Of a DNA stretch of 39,809 nt, positions 7,879-33,978 are shown piece by piece. Source of the stretch: Noviherbaspirillum denitrificans (GTDB taxonomy: Bacteria; Pseudomonadota; Gammaproteobacteria; Burkholderiales; Burkholderiaceae_D). Below the pieces are notes generated by a model. That model had not been told where the DNA came from. It did no database searches and was given only the letters and a program-made list of their open reading frames with translations. Position 1 is the stretch's first letter; every line of letters begins with the position of its first letter. Where the stretch lies: NCBI RefSeq assembly GCF_002211445.1, contig NZ_LSTO01000001.1, forward strand, positions 4,538,179-4,577,987, in the 5' to 3' direction. The position numbers were made by a program, and so were the translations under genes.

Positions 7879-7892
7879 CTAGCTCCATTTCG

Positions 7893-7990
7893 TCTCACGT
7901 AACTGGCGAGAAGCCGGAGCTGCATTCCGGCGAAAAGGTGGGCATCCACCGGGGAACGTGAGATATCCATAGCCGTTCGCCTGGGCAGCC
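7893..7990 (+). promoter_or_regulatory. ZTP (pfl) riboswitch upstream of glyA
   Basis: Stem P1 pairs TCTCACGT (7893-7900) with ACGTGAGA (7956-7963). Inside it lies the conserved AACTGGCG, an extra hairpin (7913-7918 with 7926-7931), then GGTGG-GCAT-CCACC followed by GGGGAACGTG, matching the pfl consensus CCACCGGGGAgCG. The second domain contains GCCGTTCGCCTGGGCAG (7972-7988), the conserved CGCCTGGGCA element. This RNA senses ZTP/ZMP, the alarmones of 10-formyl-THF shortage, and is known upstream of glyA, folD and purH. A possible expression platform is that GGCAGCC (7984-7990) can instead pair with GGCTGCC (8011-8017). No folding program was run. Confidence 0.87.
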
Positions 7991-8082
7991 CAAATGGAAT
8001 GCACGACTGAGGCTGCCTGTCATTTCCCTTTGGCCCTCATTCGATTCAGGCAAACCCGATTTGCAATCGATTGGAGTTTTTC

Positions 8083-17284: not shown

Positions 17285-18472
17285 ATGAATCCAGTCCTCG
17301 CTTCCCGCCTTGCAAACATTGCTCCTTTCCACGTCATGGAACTGGCGAAGATGGCGGCTGAACTGGAACGGCAGGGCCGTTCCATCATCCACATGGGCAT
17401 CGGCGAACCGGACTTCACGGCGCCGCCACCTGTTGTCGAGGCCGCATCGCGTGCCATGGCCGACGGCCGGCTGCAGTACACATCGGCCGTCGGGATTCCC
17501 GCACTGCGGGAGGAGATCGCGGCGCATTACCAGCGGGTGTACGGTCTGCAGATCGCGCCGTCGCGTATCATCGTGACGGCCGGCGCGTCAGCCGCGCTGC
17601 TGCTAGCTTGCGCCGCGCTCGTGGACAAGGGCGCGGAAGTGCTGATGCCCGATCCGTCCTACCCCTGCAACCGGCACTTCGTGGCCGCATTCGATGGTGT
17701 CGCCAGGATGATTCCGAGCGGCCCGGAGCAGCGATTCCAGTTGTCGGACGCAGTGGTGCGCAAACAATGGTCGGAAACGACGCGCGGCGTGCTGCTTGCA
17801 TCGCCGTCCAATCCGACGGGAACGTCGATCCCCCATGCCGAACTGGCGAAGATTGTCGGAACGGTGCGGGAGAAGGGCGGTTTCACGATCGTTGACGAGA
17901 TCTACCAAGGCCTGACCTACGATGAAGAGCCGTTTTCGGCGCTGTCGCTGGGCGACGACGTCGTCGTGATCAACAGCTTCTCCAAGTACTTCAACATGAC
18001 CGGCTGGCGCCTGGGGTGGCTTGTGGTGCCGGAATACCTGGTGCCTCAGGTTGAGAAGCTGGCACAGAATCTGTTCATCTGCGCCTCCAGCATTGCCCAA
18101 CATGCCGGCGTTGCCTGCTTTACGCCGGAGTCGATTGCCATCTATGAAGAGCGCAAGGCCGAATTCAAGCGCCGACGCGACTATATCGTTCCTGCACTCG
18201 GGCAACTTGGCTTCCAGGTGCCGGTGATGCCTGACGGCGCTTTCTATGTCTATGCAAATTGTTCGGCACTGTCCGATGATGCGGACAGGCTGACGATCGA
18301 CATGCTCCACCAGGCCGGCGTCGTCCTTGTTCCGGGGCTGGATTTCGGTCCTTACACCGCCCGCGAATATATCCGGCTGTCCTACGCCACCTCGCTCGAC
18401 AACCTGCAAGAGGCGGTTGCGCGTCTCGCAAAGTTCCTAGGCTTAAATCCCGTTCACTCGCGGGTCTGCTAG
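17285..18472 (+). CDS. Pyridoxal-phosphate aminotransferase, class I fold
   Basis: The 395-residue enzyme has the fold-type I motifs MGIGEPDF (37-44), SPSNPTGT (173-180, with N177), VDEIYQGL (203-210, with D204 and Y207) and the PLP lysine K234 in SFSKYFNMTGWRLGW. RLSYATS near the C terminus holds the carboxylate-binding arginine. It probably transfers amino groups between an amino acid and 2-oxoglutarate; the exact substrate cannot be read from sequence, and aspartate, alanine and aromatic amino acids are all possible. ATG 17285 gives the usual N terminus; the upstream ATG at 17240 lies inside the hairpin. It stands alone before the flagellar region. Confidence 0.85.
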   Translation: MNPVLASRLANIAPFHVMELAKMAAELERQGRSIIHMGIGEPDFTAPPPVVEAASRAMADGRLQYTSAVGIPALREEIAAHYQRVYGLQIAPSRIIVTAGASAALLLACAALVDKGAEVLMPDPSYPCNRHFVAAFDGVARMIPSGPEQRFQLSDAVVRKQWSETTRGVLLASPSNPTGTSIPHAELAKIVGTVREKGGFTIVDEIYQGLTYDEEPFSALSLGDDVVVINSFSKYFNMTGWRLGWLVVPEYLVPQVEKLAQNLFICASSIAQHAGVACFTPESIAIYEERKAEFKRRRDYIVPALGQLGFQVPVMPDGAFYVYANCSALSDDADRLTIDMLHQAGVVLVPGLDFGPYTAREYIRLSYATSLDNLQEAVARLAKFLGLNPVHSRVC

Positions 18473-18604
18473 TACTGTAATGCCATATTGGCAACTCCTC
18501 CCCTGGTCTGCTCAGGCTGTATTCAAAAAATCCTTGGATCAGCCCTAAATCCGGCCGTCCGGCGACCGTAAACCAGAAAAGCAGGCTGCAAAAAAGGCGC
18601 TCCG

Positions 18605-18627
18605 AAAAATTTTTAAAAAAATTTTTA
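18605..18627. other. A/T-tract run upstream of flhD
   Basis: Alternating A and T runs (A5, T5, A7, T5) cover 23 bases in an otherwise GC-rich genome. Such tracts bend or stiffen DNA and attract nucleoid proteins such as H-NS/MvaT-type or IHF. It lies 10 bases upstream of the candidate FliA -35 element. A regulatory role is inference. Confidence 0.45.
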
Positions 18628-18636
18628 CCGGGACCC

Positions 18637-18663
18637 TAAATTTTGCGGAGTCACTGCCGATAA
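18637..18663 (+). promoter_or_regulatory. Near-consensus FliA (sigma28) promoter upstream of flhDC
   Basis: TAAATTTT (18637-18644), exactly 11 bases, then GCCGATAA (18656-18663). The enterobacterial FliA consensus is TAAAGTTT-N11-GCCGATAA, so 15 of 16 positions agree with perfect spacing. Transcription would start near 18670 and give a leader of about 340 nt to flhD. No gene begins between it and flhD. Confidence 0.65.
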
Positions 18664-18863
18664 ACAACACAACAGTAGTACTAGGTCCTTGAGAAAAACC
18701 GGCGAAAGCCATTTTTTGCGATCAAGAGCACATATCAAAAGAATAATTAATTACTAAATTTCCCTTGGGTAAGGGGACGTGCGCAGCCGGCATCGATCGG
18801 CCGCAAAGCCAAGGCCCAAGCCAATTTCCGCACCTTTTTCAGGTGCGCATCCGACGCTGCCCG

Positions 18864-18886
18864 GTGTTTGTAGGACAAACACCTAC
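18864..18886. promoter_or_regulatory. Overlapping inverted repeats, likely regulator-binding site
   Basis: GTGTTTGT (18864-18871), AGG, ACAAACAC (18875-18882) form a perfect 8-bp inverted repeat. Overlapping it, GTAGG (18870-18874) and CCTAC (18882-18886) form a second repeat with a 7-base spacer. The GTAGG...CCTAC pattern recalls sites of RcsB/LuxR-type response regulators upstream of flhDC in enterobacteria. The regulator here is unknown. It lies about 125 bases before the flhD start. Confidence 0.45.
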
Positions 18887-18905
18887 GGGTGGCGTTCGTG
18901 CGCGT

Positions 18906-18921
18906 CCGTATTTAAATACGG
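18906..18921. promoter_or_regulatory. Perfect 16-bp palindrome in the flhD leader
   Basis: CCGTATTTAAATACGG is a perfect palindrome with no spacer, about 90 bases upstream of the flhD ATG. Perfect dyads of this length usually mark the site of a dimeric repressor or activator. Alternatively it may fold as a small hairpin in the long leader. Seen directly; function is inference. Other content of 18473-19011: a hairpin at 18829-18847 (CGCACCT/AGGTGCG) and no convincing gene. Confidence 0.45.
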
Positions 18922-19011
18922 CGAAAGTCCTATTTTCTCAGGGCAACTTCACACCGAGAATGCATCTTACTGACAGGCAAAACTGCCGGTCCGATTGCAG
19001 ACGAGGTGAAA

Positions 19012-19329
19012 ATGAACGCGAACGACATGATGGCTGAAATCCGTGACGCCAACCTGAGCTACCTGATGCTCGCCCAGCAAATGATTCGTTCCGACAAAGC
19101 TAGCGCCATTTTTCGCCTCGGCATCAGCGCAGAAATCGCCGACATGCTGGAAGGCCTCAATAACGCCCAGATCCTCAAACTCGCGAGCACCAACATGATG
19201 CTTGCCCGCTTTCGCTTCGATGACGGCGCCATCCTCGGAATGTTGACGAATTACAACAAGGATCGCGGGCTTGCGCATTCGCATGCAGCCATTCTTATGG
19301 CAGGACAACAACTCGAAGAGATTTCCTGA
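19012..19329 (+). CDS. flhD: Flagellar transcriptional activator FlhD
   Basis: The 105-residue protein has the FlhD pattern: IRDANLSYLMLAQQMIRSDK at the N terminus, FRLGISAEIADMLEGLN in the middle and a C-terminal region resembling a helix-turn-helix. With FlhC it forms the D4C2 activator of class 2 flagellar genes. ATG 19012 is chosen because GAGGTG precedes it; a GTG at 19006 is part of the ribosome site. It lies 57 bases upstream of flhC and downstream of an unusually long regulatory region. Confidence 0.94.
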   Translation: MNANDMMAEIRDANLSYLMLAQQMIRSDKASAIFRLGISAEIADMLEGLNNAQILKLASTNMMLARFRFDDGAILGMLTNYNKDRGLAHSHAAILMAGQQLEEIS

Positions 19330-19386: not shown

Positions 19387-19953
19387 ATGACTAAGAAAAG
19401 CGTAGTGACGGAAGCGCAAGAGATCCAGCTCGCGATCGAGCTCATCAACCTCGGAGCGCGTCTCCAGCTTCTCGAGTCGGAAACCAGCCTCTCCCGCGAG
19501 CGCCTGCTGAAGCTGTACAAGGAACTGAAGGGTGTCTCGCCGCCGAAGGGCATGTTGCCGTTCTCGACCGATTGGTTCATTACCTGGCAGCCGAACATCC
19601 ATTCCTCGCTCTTCATCAATATCCACAAATACCTCGTGGAGCACGCCCATGTGTCGGGCATCGAAGCGGTGATGAAGGCCTACAAGCTGTATCTCGAACA
19701 GGTCGAGCCGGATCCGAGCGGCGAACCCGTCCTGTCCCTCACGCGCGCCTGGACCCTGGTGCGCTTCTTCGAAAGCAAGATGCTCGAGACCGCGACCTGC
19801 TGCAAATGCGGCGGTGATTTCGTCGTCCATCGGCTCGATCTCCATGAGGATTATGTCTGCGGCCTTTGCCATATGCCCTCGCGTGCAGGCAAGACCAAGA
19901 AGCTGAAGGAAGAAGCTGCGGCGGCGTCCGCGTCGTCGCCAGCCCGGGTCTGA
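19387..19953 (+). CDS. flhC: Flagellar transcriptional activator FlhC
   Basis: The 188-residue protein has the FlhC signature (IQLAIELINLGARLQLLESE, LPFSTDWFITWQPNIHSS) and a C-terminal zinc site with cysteines at 138/139, 141, 158 and 161 (TCCKCGG and YVCGLC). These match the four zinc cysteines of E. coli FlhC. FlhC gives the main DNA contacts of the FlhD4C2 complex. An A/S-rich C-terminal tail follows the basic RAGKTKKLK. It forms an operon with flhD and is followed 12 bases later by a methyltransferase gene. Confidence 0.95.
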   Translation: MTKKSVVTEAQEIQLAIELINLGARLQLLESETSLSRERLLKLYKELKGVSPPKGMLPFSTDWFITWQPNIHSSLFINIHKYLVEHAHVSGIEAVMKAYKLYLEQVEPDPSGEPVLSLTRAWTLVRFFESKMLETATCCKCGGDFVVHRLDLHEDYVCGLCHMPSRAGKTKKLKEEAAAASASSPARV

Positions 19954-19965
19954 TCCGGACCGTTC

Positions 19966-20766
19966 ATGTTCAGCCGGCGCTCCGGCGCGGGCTCTTCGCT
20001 TCGTCCCGCGTTTTTCCGTATCCCCGCTGTGCTGGCACTGCTGGGGCAGTTGCTGGCATTCGGCTCGATCCTGCTGCTCGCTGCCGCGCTGACCAGCTTC
20101 GCGGGCATCCAAATATCGATTGCGCATGCTGCCCTGGTCCAGGGATGCGTTGCCGCAGTCGTTGCGCACCGCATGCGCCTTGCCATCTGGTGGCTTCCAA
20201 TCCAGCTCTGTTTTCCGCTGGCGGTCGTTGCTTCGCATGCGGTGCAGTTGCCGCCAGCACTCTACCTCGGGGCCTTCCTCTTTTTCCTGGTCCTGTTCTG
20301 GTCGACGTTTCGCACCCAGGTGCCGTTCTATCCATCCGGGCCATCGGTGTGGCGTGCTGTTGCTCAATTGTTGCCGGAAGGGCGGGCATTGCGCGTCGCC
20401 GATATCGGCAGCGGATTCGGCGGGATGGCGATGCATCTCGCGCGGGCGCGCCCCGAATGCAGGGTGACGGGCATCGAACTGGCGCCGCTGCCATGGATCT
20501 TTAGCCTGTTGCTGGGGAAGGCAAGTGGCAGTTCGGCGCGCTTCGTCCGAGGCGATTATGAAGCAGTCGACTTTGCCGATTTCGATGTCGTGTTTGCCTA
20601 CCTGTCGCCAGCCGCAATGCCCGCACTATGGTTAAAAGCACAAGCAGAAATGCGCAAGGGCAGCTTGCTGCTCAGTTATGAATTTGCCATCCCCGGTGTC
20701 GAGCCGGCGATAGCCATGCACCCTTTGCCGGATGGTCCGATGTTGTATGGCTGGCGCATGGGGTGA
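19966..20766 (+). CDS. Membrane-anchored class I SAM-dependent methyltransferase
   Basis: The 266-residue protein has about four hydrophobic helices in residues 20-115, then a cytosolic Rossmann domain. The SAM-binding motif I is ADIGSGFGGMAMHLA (about 145-159), followed by VTGIELAP with the acidic ribose-binding residue, and GDYEAVDFADFDVVFAYLSP as the later motif. Its substrate cannot be read from sequence. It starts 12 bases after flhC on the same strand and ends 159 bases before motA, so co-transcription with flhDC is likely. Flagellin or another envelope molecule could be the target, but this is conjecture. Confidence 0.8.
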   Translation: MFSRRSGAGSSLRPAFFRIPAVLALLGQLLAFGSILLLAAALTSFAGIQISIAHAALVQGCVAAVVAHRMRLAIWWLPIQLCFPLAVVASHAVQLPPALYLGAFLFFLVLFWSTFRTQVPFYPSGPSVWRAVAQLLPEGRALRVADIGSGFGGMAMHLARARPECRVTGIELAPLPWIFSLLLGKASGSSARFVRGDYEAVDFADFDVVFAYLSPAAMPALWLKAQAEMRKGSLLLSYEFAIPGVEPAIAMHPLPDGPMLYGWRMG

Positions 20767-26632: not shown

Positions 26633-26657
26633 ATTCCACACATTGAGGGTAGGGACG

Positions 26658-28370
26658 ATGCTTACAAATTTGACTATCAAGTCGCGGCTGGTGTTCGTCA
26701 TCAGCTTTCTCTCGCTGCTGCTCGTAGGTAGCGGCGTCATTGCAATTATCAGCCTGAGTGCGGCGAATACATCCACGAAGAAGATGTACGACGACCGTCT
26801 CATTCCGACCGGACAACTCAACATGATCGTCCGTCTCATCAGCGACAACCGGATGGCGGTCGCGGAGTCGATGAACGGCGATCCTTCTGTGGTCAGCAAG
26901 GCCATGGACAGCGTGGAAAAACGCATCGCGGAAGTTTCCCGGATCTGGGATGCCTACATGGCCTCCGAACTGACCGAGCTCGAGCGCACGCAGGCGAAGA
27001 AGGCGCAGGAAAGCCGCACGAAGTTCATTGAAGAAGGCTTGAAACCGACTGTCGCCGCCTTGCGCGCCTCGAACGTGCAGCAGGCCATGGAGCTGATGCA
27101 AGGGCCGATGTCCAAGGAATTCGTCGCGTTCCAGGCAGACGTCGATGCACTCCTCAAGACACAGGAAGAGGTTGCGAAGAAGGAGTACGAAAAGACCCAG
27201 CACATGTACGAGCTGGTGCGCAATGCGTCGATCGCTGCGATGCTCTTCGGCGTCACGCTGTCGGCCTTGATCGGTGTATGGCTGGTGCGCGCCATATCCG
27301 TTCCTTTGAGCGAAGCAGTGCGCGTGGCGCGCAGCGTTGCGGAGGGCGACCTCACACAGCAGATCGACATTCATTCGAAAGATGAAACCGGCCAGCTGCT
27401 GGCGGCGCTAAAGCTCATGAATGAGAGCCTATCGAGTACGGTGGGGCAGGTGCGCACCGGGACGGAATCGATGGGTGTCGCCTCGCGCGAAATTGCGCAG
27501 GGCAATGCAGATTTGTCAGCCCGCACCGAATCACAGGCCAGCTCGCTGGAAGAGACGGCTTCGTCGATGGAAGAGCTGACTTCGACGGTGAAGCAGAACG
27601 CCGAGAATGCACGCCAGGCCAACCAGCTGGTGGTATCGGCCTCCGACGTCGCGGTGCGCGGCGGCGAAGTTGTCGGCCAGGTGGTGGAGACGATGGGCTC
27701 GATCAAGGAAAGCTCGCGCAAGATCGTGGACATCATCGGTGTGATCGACGGCATTGCATTCCAGACCAACATCCTGGCGCTGAATGCGGCGGTGGAAGCG
27801 GCGCGTGCAGGCGAGCAGGGTCGCGGCTTTGCGGTGGTGGCGGCCGAGGTGCGCAACCTGGCGCAGCGTTCCGCAGGCGCGGCCAAGGAAATCAAGGAGC
27901 TGATCGGCGACTCGGTCGAGAAGGTCGATGCCGGCAGCAAGCTGGTGGACCAGGCGGGCAAGACGATGGATGAGATCGTGACCTCGGTCAAGCACGTGGC
28001 CGACATCATGAACGAGATCACCGCCGCCAGCGAGGAACAGAGTTCCGGCATCGAGCAGGTCAACCAGGCGATCAGCCAGATGGATGAAATGACGCAGCAG
28101 AACGCGGCACTGGTGGAGCAGGCCGCGGCTGCCGCCGACAGCATGCAGACACAGGCGGCAACGCTGGCGCAGGCGGTATCCATCTTCCGGATCAGCGGAG
28201 CCGCACAGCAGGTCGTCCCGGTGGCACTGAAGTCAGGTACACCTGCGCCGTCACTGCCGTCCAAACCGGCGGCCGCACGTGCCCTTGCGCCTCGCTCTTC
28301 GACGCCCCCCGGCGCACGAACCAAGCCAGTTGTGCCAGCGGGTACCGGAAGCGAATGGGAAGAGTTCTGA
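26658..28370 (+). CDS. Methyl-accepting chemotaxis protein 1
   Basis: The 570-residue receptor has TM1 (about 12-32), a periplasmic four-helix-bundle sensor (about 34-190), TM2 (about 195-215), HAMP and a Tsr-type signalling domain with the hairpin tip [20 protein letters not shown]. The C-terminal linker is proline-rich and ends SEWEEF, the CheR-tether pentapeptide (NWETF in E. coli Tar/Tsr). The ligand cannot be read from sequence. ATG 26658 is used, with TTG at 26643 rejected because the former starts a normal [11 protein letters not shown]. It is followed by two sister receptors with near-identical signalling DNA. Confidence 0.93.
27500..28030 (+). repeat. Long repeat shared by receptor genes 1 and 3 (first copy)
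   Basis: About 531 bases match 31194-31724 with only about a dozen differences counted by eye, nearly all at third codon positions. More than 150 consecutive bases near the start appear identical. Receptor 2 has a related copy around 29267-29794. Two similar repeats 3.7 kb apart in direct orientation could recombine. Confidence 0.8.
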
Positions 28371-28417
28371 TGCCGGCATCGGCACGCAGTGTTCACTACA
28401 ACTAAAGGAAAAACGCC

Positions 28418-30142
28418 ATGTTGAAGTTGTCGGATATGAGGATCGGGACACGCCTCGTGCTGGGCTTCGGCCTTGTGCTTTTGTGCGCCACCACGCTCCT
28501 CGTTATTGCGCTGTGGCGCATGAGCCACTTGCACGCTACTTCGGAGCGCATCGTCAATGAACGTGTCGCAAGCCTCACCAGCGGCATGGAAATGCGCGAG
28601 GCCGGATGGGGGCTGGCGCTGTCCCTGCGCAAGGTCGCCACCCCGACCGATGCGACCGAGGGCGAGCGCGAGGTCAAGCGCCTGGCCGTACTGCTCGATG
28701 TGTATACGAAGGCCGAGGCGACGCTACAGAAGTATTCAGATGATGCACAGTCGAAGTCGCTGCTCGCAGCGGCGACCGAGCAGAAGCAGGCGATTTTCCC
28801 GGTCATCGAAAAGATCAAGTCGCAGGTCGCCGGCGGGAACTATTTCGACGCTTCTTCGGTGCTCAAGAGTGACTTCAATCCACTCCATGAAAAATGGATT
28901 AACAGCCTTGTCGCGCTGGCGGATTACCAGCAGAAGGAAATGAAAGCGACATTCGAGCAGTCGCAGGCAAACTATGGCACGGCGCGCATGGGCATGCTGG
29001 CTATCGGCATCCTGACGATTGCCATCGGCGCATTCATCGCGGTGTTCATTACCCGGACGATTACCTCGCCGCTGCATGAAGCGGCACGGGTGGCGAACAC
29101 TATCGCCGGCGGCGACCTGACGGCCAGGATCGACGTGCAGGGCAAGGACGAGGCAGGAGAACTGGTCAATGCTCTCAAGACCATGCAATCCAACCTGGTC
29201 GAGACGGTCAATCAGATCAAGCGAGGGACCGAGACCATCTCCGTCGCCTCGCGTGAAATTGCATCGGGCAACGCGGATCTTTCGGCCCGTACGGAATCGC
29301 AGGCCAGCTCGCTGGAAGAGACGGCTTCGTCGATGGAAGAACTGACAACGACGGTGAAGCAGAATGCCGAGAATGCACGCCAGGCCAACCAGCTGGTGGT
29401 CTCCGCGTCGGACTATGCGCTGAAGGGCGGCGAAGTTGTCGGCCAGGTGGTGGAGACGATGGGCTCGATCAAGGAAAGCTCGCGCAAGATCGTGGACATC
29501 ATCGGCGTGATCGATGGCATTGCATTCCAGACCAACATCCTGGCGCTAAATGCAGCGGTGGAAGCGGCGCGTGCAGGCGAGCAGGGCCGGGGTTTTGCGG
29601 TGGTGGCGGCTGAGGTGCGCAACCTGGCGCAGCGTTCCGCAGGTGCAGCCAAGGAAATCAAGGAGCTGATCGGCGACTCGGTCGAGAAGGTCGATGCCGG
29701 CAGCAAGCTGGTGGACCAGGCGGGCAAGACGATGGACGAGATCGTGACCTCGGTCAAGCACGTGGCCGACATCATGAGCGAGATCACCGCAGCGAGCCAG
29801 GAACAGAGCTCGGGCATCGAAGAAGTCAACCGCGCCATCGCGCAGATGGACGAAATGACACAGCAGAACGCGGCGCTGGTGGAGCAGGCAGCAGCGGCAG
29901 CCGAAAGCATGCAGGACCAGTCCGTCAACCTGGCCCAGGCAGTCGGCGTGTTCAAGCTTGGCGCCGCGGAGCAGATGTTCGCGGCACCGGTTCCGGCTGT
30001 GGCAGCCCGTCCCCAGCCGCCGAAAAAGGTCACGGCGCCCGCACCCAAACCGGCGGCACGCGCGCCGGTCCCCACCACCAAGACGGCTGGAGCCGTCAAG
30101 CCGCCCGCAGGCAGCAGTGCTGACGAGTGGGAGGAGTTCTGA
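28418..30142 (+). CDS. Methyl-accepting chemotaxis protein 2
   Basis: The 574-residue receptor has TM1 (about 12-32), a four-helix-bundle periplasmic sensor (about 35-185), TM2 (about 190-212, [18 protein letters not shown]), HAMP and the same signalling hairpin as its neighbours. It ends SADEWEEF, a CheR tether. The sensor differs from those of receptors 1 and 3, while the signalling part is almost the same. Within it, SDYALKGG replaces the SDVAVRGG of the other two. GGAAAA at 28404-28409 supports ATG 28418. The 206-base gap to receptor 3 has no recognisable element. Confidence 0.93.
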
Positions 30143-30348
30143 GCCGGACGACAGTACAGTCGCGTACCGGCTTGATGCAGATTACTTCTCGCGGCAAATT
30201 GCTCCACCTTGACACACAAATCGTGGATAACGGGGTTGCTTCAGAGTAATATGCTTGGGAAACTGCATATCTGCAGGTCAATCAACAAGGCTGGCCGCTT
30301 CCACAAGACGGTCGGCAGTGATCAAGCAAAAAGAGTCGGGAGAAACAT

Positions 30349-32088
30349 ATGAATTTGCGTAGCTTGCGTATCGGCGCGCGCCTGGGGGCCGGTTTCGGTA
30401 TCCTCCTTGCCATCCTTGCATTGATGGTCGTCCTCGGGAATGTGCTGACGACCAGGAACAAGCAACGGCTGATCGACGGCCTTGAACTTGCCAACAGCAA
30501 GAGCGCGCTTGTCGCCACGATGAAGAGCGCCCTGCTGGAGGGCGGCGTCGCCATGCGCAACATCGGCCTTCAGTCCGACGTCGGCGCGATGCAGAAGGAA
30601 GAATCTCGTGTCAAGGAACAGAACAAGCGTTACTCCGAGGCGCGCGACAAGCTGACTGCGCTGGGTCTGACGGACGCCGAGAAAAAGATCGTGGCCGAGA
30701 TTTCCCGCCTCGACCAGGAAATCGCCGCGCCGTTCAAGGAGGCCATCGGCCAGGCACTGGCGTTCAACAGCGAAGGTGCCGCCAAGGTCATCGCCAGCCG
30801 CATCGATCCGCTGAACCACCAGGCCGTGTCCGAGATGGACAAGCTGGTAGCCCTGCAGCAGGCCGCGGTAAAGGAAGTGGTCGAAGGTTCGCTCTCCGAT
30901 GACAGCAGCCTCATGATCCTGCTGTATGTCCTCGGCGTGATCGCCATCGCGATCGGCAGCGTTTTCGCCTGGTTGATCACCCACAGTATCACCGGTCCGC
31001 TGAACGACGCTGTCGGCGTCGCAAGCCGCGTTGCCACGGGCGACCTGACTTCGCGGATCGACGACAACAGCCGCGATGAAATCGGCCAGCTGCTCGATGC
31101 ACTGCGCCAGATGAACAACAGCCTGTCTGAAATTGTCGGTAACGTCCGCACCGGAACGGAAAACATCGGTGTCGCCTCTGGTGAAATCGCACAGGGCAAT
31201 GCAGATTTGTCGGCCCGCACCGAATCACAGGCCAGCTCGCTGGAAGAGACGGCTTCGTCGATGGAAGAGCTGACTTCGACGGTGAAGCAGAACGCCGAGA
31301 ATGCACGCCAGGCCAACCAGCTGGTGGTATCGGCCTCCGACGTCGCGGTGCGCGGCGGCGAAGTTGTCGGCCAGGTGGTGGAGACGATGGGCTCGATCAA
31401 GGAAAGCTCGCGCAAGATCGTGGATATCATCGGTGTGATCGACGGCATTGCATTCCAGACCAACATCCTGGCGCTGAATGCAGCGGTGGAAGCGGCGCGT
31501 GCAGGCGAGCAGGGACGTGGCTTTGCGGTGGTGGCGGCGGAAGTGCGCAACCTGGCGCAGCGTTCCGCAGGCGCAGCCAAGGAAATCAAGGAGCTGATCG
31601 GTGACTCGGTCGAGAAGGTCGATGCTGGCAGCAAGCTGGTGGACCAGGCGGGCAAGACGATGGACGAGATCGTGACCTCGGTCAAGCACGTGGCCGACAT
31701 CATGAACGAGATCACCGCCGCCAGCCAGGAACAGAGCTCGGGCATCGAGGAAGTCAACCGCGCCATCGCGCAGATGGACGAAATGACACAGCAGAACGCG
31801 GCATTGGTGGAGCAGGCAGCAGCCACCGCGGAGAGCATGCAGCAGCAGGCCAGCACGCTTTCGCAGGCAGTGTCCGTCTTCAAGGTCGAAGGCATTGCCA
31901 GGATGGCCATGGCACCGGCCCCTGTTGCCAAGCCGCCTGCAAGCGTTCCGAAGACGGTAGAGCCCCCGCGCCCGGCGCGCCAGGTGTCTGCGCCGAAGAC
32001 GGCGGTTGCTCCGGCGGCGCCGAAACCGATCGCGCGGACAAAAGCTGTCGCACCGGTCAACGACGGTGGCGACTGGGAAGAGTTCTGA
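30349..32088 (+). CDS. Methyl-accepting chemotaxis protein 3
   Basis: The 579-residue receptor has TM1 (about 11-32), a four-helix-bundle periplasmic domain (about 35-190) and TM2 (about 190-212, [18 protein letters not shown]). HAMP and a signalling domain follow, the latter nearly identical to receptor 1 in its first part and to receptor 2 toward its end. It ends GDWEEF, the CheR tether. GGGAGAAAC (30338-30346) is a good ribosome site for ATG 30349. A strong terminator follows it. Confidence 0.93.
31194..31724 (+). repeat. Long repeat shared by receptor genes 1 and 3 (second copy)
   Basis: Counterpart of 27500-28030 at a fixed offset of 3694 bases, without insertions or deletions. Right after it the sequence switches to resemble receptor 2 (29796-29893 matches 31724-31821 almost exactly), so receptor 3 is a mosaic of its two sisters. 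Confidence 0.8.
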
Positions 32089-32151
32089 TTTCGACAGGAT
32101 GATTGACCGGGACATTGACATGTTTCGACAACAATCGGTCAATAACATGAA

Positions 32152-32179
32152 AAGCGTGCCTGCGAGGGCACGCTTTTTT
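32152..32179 (+). terminator. Rho-independent terminator after receptor 3
   Basis: AAGCGTGCC (32152-32160), loop TGCGAG, GGCACGCTT (32167-32175), with T74-T79 forming a TTTTTT run. This is a textbook terminator 64 bases after the stop of receptor 3, so the fourth receptor probably has its own promoter in 32180-32337. Confidence 0.9.
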
Positions 32180-32337
32180 GCATCAAAAACGGCTGGTTTG
32201 GCAGGCTGTTCCTTGGATTGGATAAGGGCCGTGCCATCGATAATCCGTCAGGGCACCGCCGGCGGTATGGAACGTACGGCAACGTGCGTTGGATATGCTA
32301 CGCTGAATTATCGGGATCGATACCCTGTGGAGGCCGA

Positions 32338-33978
32338 ATGAAGATGATGGAACACAAGCTGACTCGCACACTCATTGTCGGTGCGCTTGCGGTTGCATCA
32401 GGAACGGCGGTCGCGGCATTCGTCGGCTGGGCGGGCGGCGATGGGATCAGTCCGCTGCTTATGGCGGCGGCGGGCGCGCTGACGGCCACTCTGATCATGC
32501 CGCTGGCCGTTTCGCGCAACGGTGGTGGCACGTCCCACTTCATCGAGGCCATGGGTGAGGAGGTCGACCACATCATGATCGGTGCTGCCGAAACATCGTA
32601 CTTCGTCGACTCCATCAAGAAGAAGGTCGACATCGATCTGCAGACGACTGAAGAGATTGTCGGCCGCGCGCAGCAAACGGCACAAACCACCGAGCAGATC
32701 GCTGCCAACGCCGAGCGCGCCGCGAGGGTCGCGGCCGATGTGCGGACCGAGAGCGTCGCCGGGCGGTCAGAGGTCGACCAGGGGCTCAAGCAGATCAGCA
32801 ATGCGCGCATGGATGCGCAGGCAGCGTCGGAAGTGATGGGCAAGCTCCAGGAGCGCTCGCGCCGCATTCACGTGATTACCGAAGTCATCAACGAAATTGC
32901 CGCACGCACCAACCTCCTCGCGCTGAATGCCGCCATTGAAGCGGCGCGGGCCGGCGAGCACGGCCGCGGATTTGCCGTGGTAGCCGGCGAAGTCCGCCAG
33001 CTCGCGCAACGCACCAAGTCTGCGACGGACGACATCGGTGTCATGGTCCGCGAAATCAACGAGGAAGCCGAACGCGCGGCGGAAGGCATGAATGCACTGA
33101 CCGGCAAGGTCAACGAAGCGGCTCATAATGTCGAGCGCGTGCATACCTTCCTTGGCAATATCGAGCGCTCGGCAGTCGTCTCTGAAAGCGAGATCCAGCA
33201 AATCGCTGGCGCCTCGCGCGAGCACGTCGAGACGACCCACGTGATCGCCGATGCCATTTCCCGCATCCGCGACGGCATGCTCGCGACGGAAGACGAGCTT
33301 CCACGCGCTGCCAAATCGGCAATGGTCCTGTCGGAACGTGGCGAAATGCTGTTCGACGTCCTGTCGCATTCCAATGCCAAGACCTCGCATGACGACATCC
33401 GCGCCGTTGCCCAACAAGCAGCAAAGGATGTTGGAAAGCTTTTCGAGCAGGCGATCTCCTCCGGGCAGATTACTGAAGCGGCGCTCTTCGACCGTACCTA
33501 CAAGCCGGTTCCGAATACCAATCCACCAAAGCACAAGACGGCATTTGACACCTTTACCGACCGCGTGCTGCCGGCGATCCAGGAACCAATTCTGGAAAAG
33601 ATGCCGCATATCGCCTACGCGGGCGCTGTCGATAACAACGGTTATTTCCCGACGCACAACCGCAAATTCTCGAAGCCGCTGACAGGCAATTACGATGTCG
33701 ACCTGGTGAATAACCGCACCAAGCGCATCTTCAACGACCGCACCGGTTCGCGCTGTGGATCAAACACCAAGCCCTTCCTCCTGCAGACCTACAAGCGCGA
33801 CACGGGTGAGGTGATGCACGACCTGTCGGTGCCGATCTATGTGAACGGTAAGCATTGGGGCGGTTTCCGGGTTGGCTACAGGTCCAGTGCGCCGGTCGCG
33901 GCGAGTGCGCAGTCGGCACTGGCGCAATCGGCTGCACGCCCTGCGATCAAGGGCAAGTCCAAGGGGATGCAAGGGTGA
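32338..33978 (+). CDS. Methyl-accepting chemotaxis protein 4, C-terminal sensor type
   Basis: The 546-residue receptor has two N-terminal membrane helices (about 10-32 and 38-58) with almost no periplasmic loop. A signalling domain follows (about 70-365) with the tip VINEIAARTNLLALNAAIEA. After it come about 150 more residues holding PHIAYAGAVDNNGYFPTHN, NNRTKRIFNDRTG, LLQTYKRDTGEVMHDLSVPI and KHWGGFRVGY, a conserved globular module. That module is probably the cytoplasmic sensor, reminiscent of Cache/PAS-type folds, but I cannot name it. The xWEEF tether is missing. GTGGAGG (32327-32333) supports ATG 32338. Confidence 0.87.
   Translation: MKMMEHKLTRTLIVGALAVASGTAVAAFVGWAGGDGISPLLMAAAGALTATLIMPLAVSRNGGGTSHFIEAMGEEVDHIMIGAAETSYFVDSIKKKVDIDLQTTEEIVGRAQQTAQTTEQIAANAERAARVAADVRTESVAGRSEVDQGLKQISNARMDAQAASEVMGKLQERSRRIHVITEVINEIAARTNLLALNAAIEAARAGEHGRGFAVVAGEVRQLAQRTKSATDDIGVMVREINEEAERAAEGMNALTGKVNEAAHNVERVHTFLGNIERSAVVSESEIQQIAGASREHVETTHVIADAISRIRDGMLATEDELPRAAKSAMVLSERGEMLFDVLSHSNAKTSHDDIRAVAQQAAKDVGKLFEQAISSGQITEAALFDRTYKPVPNTNPPKHKTAFDTFTDRVLPAIQEPILEKMPHIAYAGAVDNNGYFPTHNRKFSKPLTGNYDVDLVNNRTKRIFNDRTGSRCGSNTKPFLLQTYKRDTGEVMHDLSVPIYVNGKHWGGFRVGYRSSAPVAASAQSALAQSAARPAIKGKSKGMQG

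Follow-up and report, generated by a model that had tools for sequence, protein, structure and literature searches.

The flagellar cascade is taught as a one-way sequence that runs from FlhDC to FliA and from FliA to the late genes. FliA (σ28) promoters follow the consensus TAAAGTTT-N11-GCCGATAA, with a TAAA −35 box, an 11-base spacer and a GCCGATAA-type −10 box. An A/T-rich block upstream of a −35 box is known as an UP element, and σ28-dependent small RNAs occur in E. coli. For enterohaemorrhagic E. coli (EHEC), Clarke and Sperandio (2005) carry FliA regulation of flhDC in the title of their paper, and a review that cites it names QseB, not FliA, in the citing passage. In addition, the accessible text of PMC10578931 describes MotR of E. 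coli, which begins at a FliA promoter within flhC. We examined how the flhDC region of Noviherbaspirillum denitrificans compares with these systems, within a 39,809-nt stretch of DNA that we refer to as the window.

Architecture of the predicted FliA promoter module

A preliminary description of this DNA had proposed FliA-type boxes upstream of flhDC, and their letters, coordinates, spacer of exactly 11 bases and single mismatch to the consensus all proved exact (Table 1). Elsewhere in the window, nothing matches the consensus with three or fewer mismatches; shuffled windows yielded a mean of 0.08 sites at this threshold, with at least one site in 8 of 100 shuffles. FliA is encoded in the same genome, as indicated by a match to the TIGR02479 model above its cut-off. 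The fliA gene (C1:3205606) lies 1.35 Mb from flhD (C1:4557190), and in genome G005 the two genes share one contig, within about 26 kb. Upstream, an aminotransferase gene ends at 18472, and the statement that no gene starts between the site and flhD held: the interval contains short mechanical ORFs only, none recognised as a gene, and the longest on the plus strand (18765–19037, overlapping flhD) has no Pfam match. Elsewhere in the window, a methyltransferase-like gene (19966–20763) lies between flhC and motA, four genes for MCP-domain chemoreceptors stand in a row followed by cheR (26643–33978), and a ZMP/ZTP riboswitch (59.9 bits, 7889–7993, plus strand) directly precedes a serine hydroxymethyltransferase gene at 8071.

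Table 1. Predicted and annotated features around flhDC, in window coordinates.
Feature	Position	Strand	Evidence
Degenerate distal FliA-like site, TAAATCCG-N11-ACCGTAAA	18546–18572	+	Sequence; lines up with the distal site in relatives
A/T block (A-tract/T-tract), UP-element-like	18605–18627	+	A/T fraction in relatives; ACCC immediately before the −35 box
Proximal FliA (σ28) promoter, predicted	18637–18663	+	TAAATTTT-N11-GCCGATAA, conserved 5' of flhD in relatives
A/T-armed hairpin after the expected start (~18670)	18694–18717	+	Folding z −1.1; arm changes in L005, L006
Inverted repeat CGCACCT/AGGTGCG	18829–18847	+	Hairpin of drifting sequence here in many relatives
Long hairpin/palindrome containing TTTGTAGGACAAACACCTAC	18856–18893	+	Most conserved block between the FliA sites and flhD
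GAGAAT, −10-like element of a presumed separate flhDC promoter	18956–18961	+	Conserved alignment columns; presumed function
flhD	19012–19329	+	Pfam PF05247, E 6.2e-44; ATG start at 19012
flhC	19387–19953	+	Pfam PF05280, E 1.7e-90

Judged by its sequence, each copy of the module consists of an UP-like A/T block, ACCC, TAAAGTTY, an 11-base spacer and GCCGTTAA. In relatives, 55 proximal and 45 distal sites share this context, in which a 20-bp A/T block is separated by roughly six free bases from ACCC and the −35 box. The A/T fraction at −30 to −11 from the −35 box is 0.85–0.93 for the proximal sites (n = 55) and 0.79–0.91 for the distal sites (n = 45), so that the block, lying 11–30 bp before the −35 box, resembles an UP element in its placement. 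Seven other FliA-type sites of this genome that were compared are without the full context of A/T block and ACCC, as judged by eye.

The distal site, overlooked in the preliminary description, precedes the proximal one by 91 bp, and tandem sites in relatives are 63–119 bp apart. Of the two copies in this genome, the proximal one stays close to the consensus and the distal one appears to have decayed. Three of four clades show low conservation upstream of the distal A/T block and a rise around it; in the Janthinobacterium group, the sequence is well conserved again further upstream. Conservation falls between the FliA module and the proximal regulatory block in several clades, and the conservation profile is therefore no proof that transcripts reach flhD.

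Genomic background of the motif

Across the whole genome (5.8 Mb), two sites carry one mismatch, namely the proximal flhD site and a site before flgM, and two carry two mismatches, one before fliS and one before the gene of a DUF4214 protein. The motif thus precedes flgM and fliS, and also flaG. With up to three mismatches there is no excess over the reversed control (19 matches vs 22), nor is there with the pattern TAAA-N15-GCCGWTA in this genome (8 vs 8); over 17 genomes this pattern gave 73 matches vs 169 in the reversed control. Since such loose patterns show no excess, a sequence match alone is insufficient for a FliA claim, and the FliA reading draws its support from the conservation of the sites at flhD in relatives. 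FliA-like sites also stand before genes for a DUF4214/Ig-like protein, a TPR glycosyltransferase (family 41) and an HD-domain protein (this genome, L034, L054, L059); the genes behind these sites are possible late flagellar genes.

Conservation upstream of flhD in relatives

We analyzed the best 80 of 390 FlhD loci, mostly from Oxalobacteraceae and including some metagenome-assembled genomes (MAGs) with broader labels; 79 had sufficient upstream DNA and were scanned. The strict pattern, TAAA-N15-GCCG[AT]TA, was found in 48 of these 79 loci (77 sites, all in the sense of flhD, with at least two sites in 29 loci), and the looser pattern in 54 (93 sites, at least two in 39 loci). The controls over the same 79 loci were nearly empty: the opposite strand held no strict and one loose site, the reversed pattern gave none, and 20 shuffles of each locus produced one strict and 18 loose sites in total. 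Within the genus of the window, a site was scored in 13 of 15 loci (none in L015 and L016). Among the best matches kept, the nearest to the window by FlhD are Herbaspirillum sp. ST 5-3, a proteobacterial MAG and Noviherbaspirillum sp. Root189, and the nearest, Herbaspirillum sp. ST 5-3 (L068), has a site. The genome also carries a second flhD-like gene (L187, C1:4128237–4129077; 60% identical), with no FliA site upstream.

Twenty-five of the 79 loci have no loose site. Twenty of them are Herbaspirillum-named and still retain flhD, which counts against feedback from FliA to flhDC; three others (L073, L097, L130) have near-sites and two (L091, L146) have none. A second set of 40 further flhD-type loci, mostly more distant and from other families, contained a site in 8: one of four loci of the window's family, and seven loci in four other families (f34, 2 of 4; f25, 3 of 3; f29, 1 of 1; f42, 1 of 1). 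No locus from 17 other families in this set carried a site, and the 32 loci that keep flhD without one likewise count against feedback. The locus sets share species and are therefore not independent of one another.

The extended motif was then compared across genomes. In 60 genomes, ACCCTAAA-N15-GCCGWTA gave 23 matches vs 2 in the reversed control, 18 of them at most 700 bp upstream of flhD and in its sense. The stricter form CCCTAAAGTT-N12-GCCGTTA excludes the site in the window itself. Searched through 145 family genomes, it matched 43 times, in 34 of them, against once in the reversed control, and 38 of the 43 matches lie upstream of flhD. The 30 fetched loci hold 38 matches, 33 of which are 304–668 bp upstream of flhD; the five outside the fetched loci are all at flhD too. 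The five matches not at flhD precede flgK (one), flgM (one) and fliT (two), or, in L210, no recognised gene. A motif found at flhD and also before flgK, flgM and fliT is therefore that of a flagellar σ28 promoter whose chief place is flhD. With position, orientation and both boxes conserved, and the extended motif before these late genes, the comparison of sequences gives good support to 18637–18663 as a FliA promoter, and the alignment of close relatives that the preliminary description had suggested as a check came out in its favour.

Predicted structured elements between the module and flhD

The palindrome at 18856–18893 is part of a stretch (18855–18905) that folds with −24.1 kcal/mol (z −2.5). 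In the form TTTGT-N2-GACAAA-N2-CCTACA it lies upstream of flhD in most aligned loci, with or without FliA sites. We take it to resemble the operator of a NarL/LuxR-type regulator, and it may be such an operator or an RNA hairpin. In Herbaspirillum loci without FliA sites, three elements are also conserved: the TTTGTAGGACAAAC-ACCTAC palindrome/hairpin, an AAATAC...CCTATTT block, and CAGAAT, which is the counterpart of GAGAAT in most aligned relatives. These three probably belong to a regular promoter of flhDC. We considered by eye whether the GCCGCAAAGCC stretch could be a σ54 element or a riboswitch and dropped the idea, with no tool result in its favour.

In many loci, the hairpin of drifting sequence comes to an end some 20 nt upstream of the palindrome, and a stem of at least 6 was found in 59 of 75 anchored loci vs 40 in the neighbouring 60 nt. 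Its co-occurrence with FliA sites was counted in 78 loci, with five FliA-bearing loci without the box left out and shared ancestry ignored: 41 loci have both, 7 the FliA sites only, 9 the hairpin only and 16 neither.

Covariation was assessed on an alignment (A1) that joins the window to 48 loci with FliA sites. In the palindrome, the inner helix was 76% paired, exceeded all slid controls and outscored every one of the 500 shuffles on four of five measures, with 7 of them reaching its value on the fifth; it is likely structured. For the drifting hairpin the result is suggestive of structure: it was 58% paired, and no shuffle matched it in pairing or covariation score, but some did in the number of pair types or of changed pairs, and one slid version reached 55%. 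The outer stem was no better than slid controls in this alignment, and RNAalifold predicted no pair in it. The inverted repeat may be a protein operator instead of an RNA structure.

The preliminary description had also suggested that the hairpin at 18694–18717 could end or attenuate the transcript. The hairpin exists, and in the close relatives L005 and L006 its A/T arms are altered yet, by eye, largely complementary. Its stability is ordinary (−6 kcal/mol; z −1.0 for a 66-nt stretch), and a simple terminator scan of 18400–19100 found none. Terminator-like structures, defined as a hairpin at or below an energy cut-off followed by a T-run downstream of the proximal site, were counted in 55 loci and in shuffles, giving 18 vs 10.0 at −3 kcal/mol, 11 vs 5.6 at −5, 4 vs 1.6 at −7 and 0 vs 1.0 at −9. 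The proposed role thus gains little from its stability or from these counts (11 of 55 vs 5.6); a weak terminator or pause is possible. No terminator is conserved between the site and flhD in these 55 loci. In some clades (L126, L129, L132) a hairpin and T-run do follow the site, which counts against feedback. The first 60 nt after the sites fold ordinarily (mean z −0.69 for 55 proximal and −0.66 for 45 distal sites). Folding is strongest at 101–160 nt downstream of the proximal start (mean z −2.05, with 26 of 55 below −2). Where the proximal site is near −305, this stretch covers the palindrome; in the window, it falls immediately upstream of the palindrome.

Discussion

We lean towards reading these sites as auxiliary FliA promoters, tandem in many relatives, that would feed flhDC and so provide feedback from the last stage of the cascade to the first. 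The predicted module, its orientation towards flhD, its conservation and the identity of its motif with that of late flagellar promoters are evident in the sequences compared. The auxiliary-promoter reading is favoured because the module faces flhD, with no conserved terminator and no recognised gene between them. Once the hook is complete and FlgM is exported, free FliA would fire the module promoters, and their transcripts would cross a structured leader of about 340 nt before entering flhDC. In the late stage, FliA would thereby add to the master regulator that a presumed separate housekeeping promoter near 18956 supplies, possibly as positive feedback.

A serious rival, though in our judgement a rather unlikely one, is that the tandem promoters instead produce short FliA-dependent RNAs, one each, which end before flhD and act in trans. 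Such products would suit tandem units 63–119 bp apart, the hairpin and T-run that end some proximal units, and the precedent of MotR with its FliA promoter within flhC (PMC10578931, in its accessible text). The predicted distal transcript is also 0.87–0.94 identical over −380 to −321 in seven Pseudoduganella, Duganella and Massilia loci; in the same loci, −300 to −261 is about as conserved (0.86–0.92). However, transcript sequences vary between clades as judged by eye, the first 60 nt have a mean z of only about −0.7, and terminator-like hairpins number 11 of 55 against 5.6 in shuffles. Nor does any Rfam family match above its cut-off at the site: a search of 18400–19100 with E values up to 5 returned four matches, all far below the family cut-offs, which we took as chance. 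The Betaproteobacteria toxic small RNA (RF02278) was considered and rejected, with no match at the site; the four copies inspected elsewhere are of the CUCCUCC type with a terminator. RF02278 has 8 matches in this genome and occurs in 47 of 58 other genomes, with up to 25 copies per genome.

Negative feedback, in which transcription started by FliA passes over the control region of flhDC and disturbs the regular promoter there, appears improbable. The geometry would permit it, as the sites lie 270–670 bp upstream of flhD in the same orientation with the presumed flhDC promoter and operator downstream, but nothing in the data is specific to interference and the regular promoter is itself presumed. 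Finally, it is very improbable that the match arose by chance or marks a binding site from which no transcription starts: single-genome counts do not exceed the reversed control and the accessible part of PMC4183435 states that RNA levels did not change around many non-canonical FliA sites in E. coli, but boxes, spacing, strand, place and A/T block are conserved across genera.

Taking the auxiliary-promoter reading to its full extent, we tentatively suggest that a duplicated, UP-boosted σ28 promoter produces a structured RNA with covarying hairpins that controls the master regulator after assembly, closing the cascade at its top in much of Oxalobacteraceae and among members of four further families in the order. 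With a conserved σ28 promoter pair aimed at flhDC, environmental bacteria would allow a direct test of such a feedback loop, and Herbaspirillum, with its loci mostly lacking the sites, offers a natural comparison.

An effect of FliA on flhDC has already been claimed for EHEC. We found no description of the paired, A/T-flanked module at flhD in the open-access literature searched, whose partial coverage makes this absence weak evidence. The EHEC system, as far as the accessible sources describe it, resembles ours in an effect of FliA on transcription of the flagellar master operon; it differs in involving QseBC and a single pathogen, whereas the module described here is conserved, often tandem and A/T-flanked in another lineage. 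MotR likewise shares a FliA promoter adjoining the flhDC genes and a possible short RNA product, but according to the accessible text of PMC10578931 it starts inside flhC and constitutes the motA 5' UTR, whereas the present promoters lie upstream of flhD. The late promoters before flgM, flgK, fliS, flaG and fliT in these genomes have the same boxes at the same spacing, yet they precede late genes, whereas the module described here precedes flhD.
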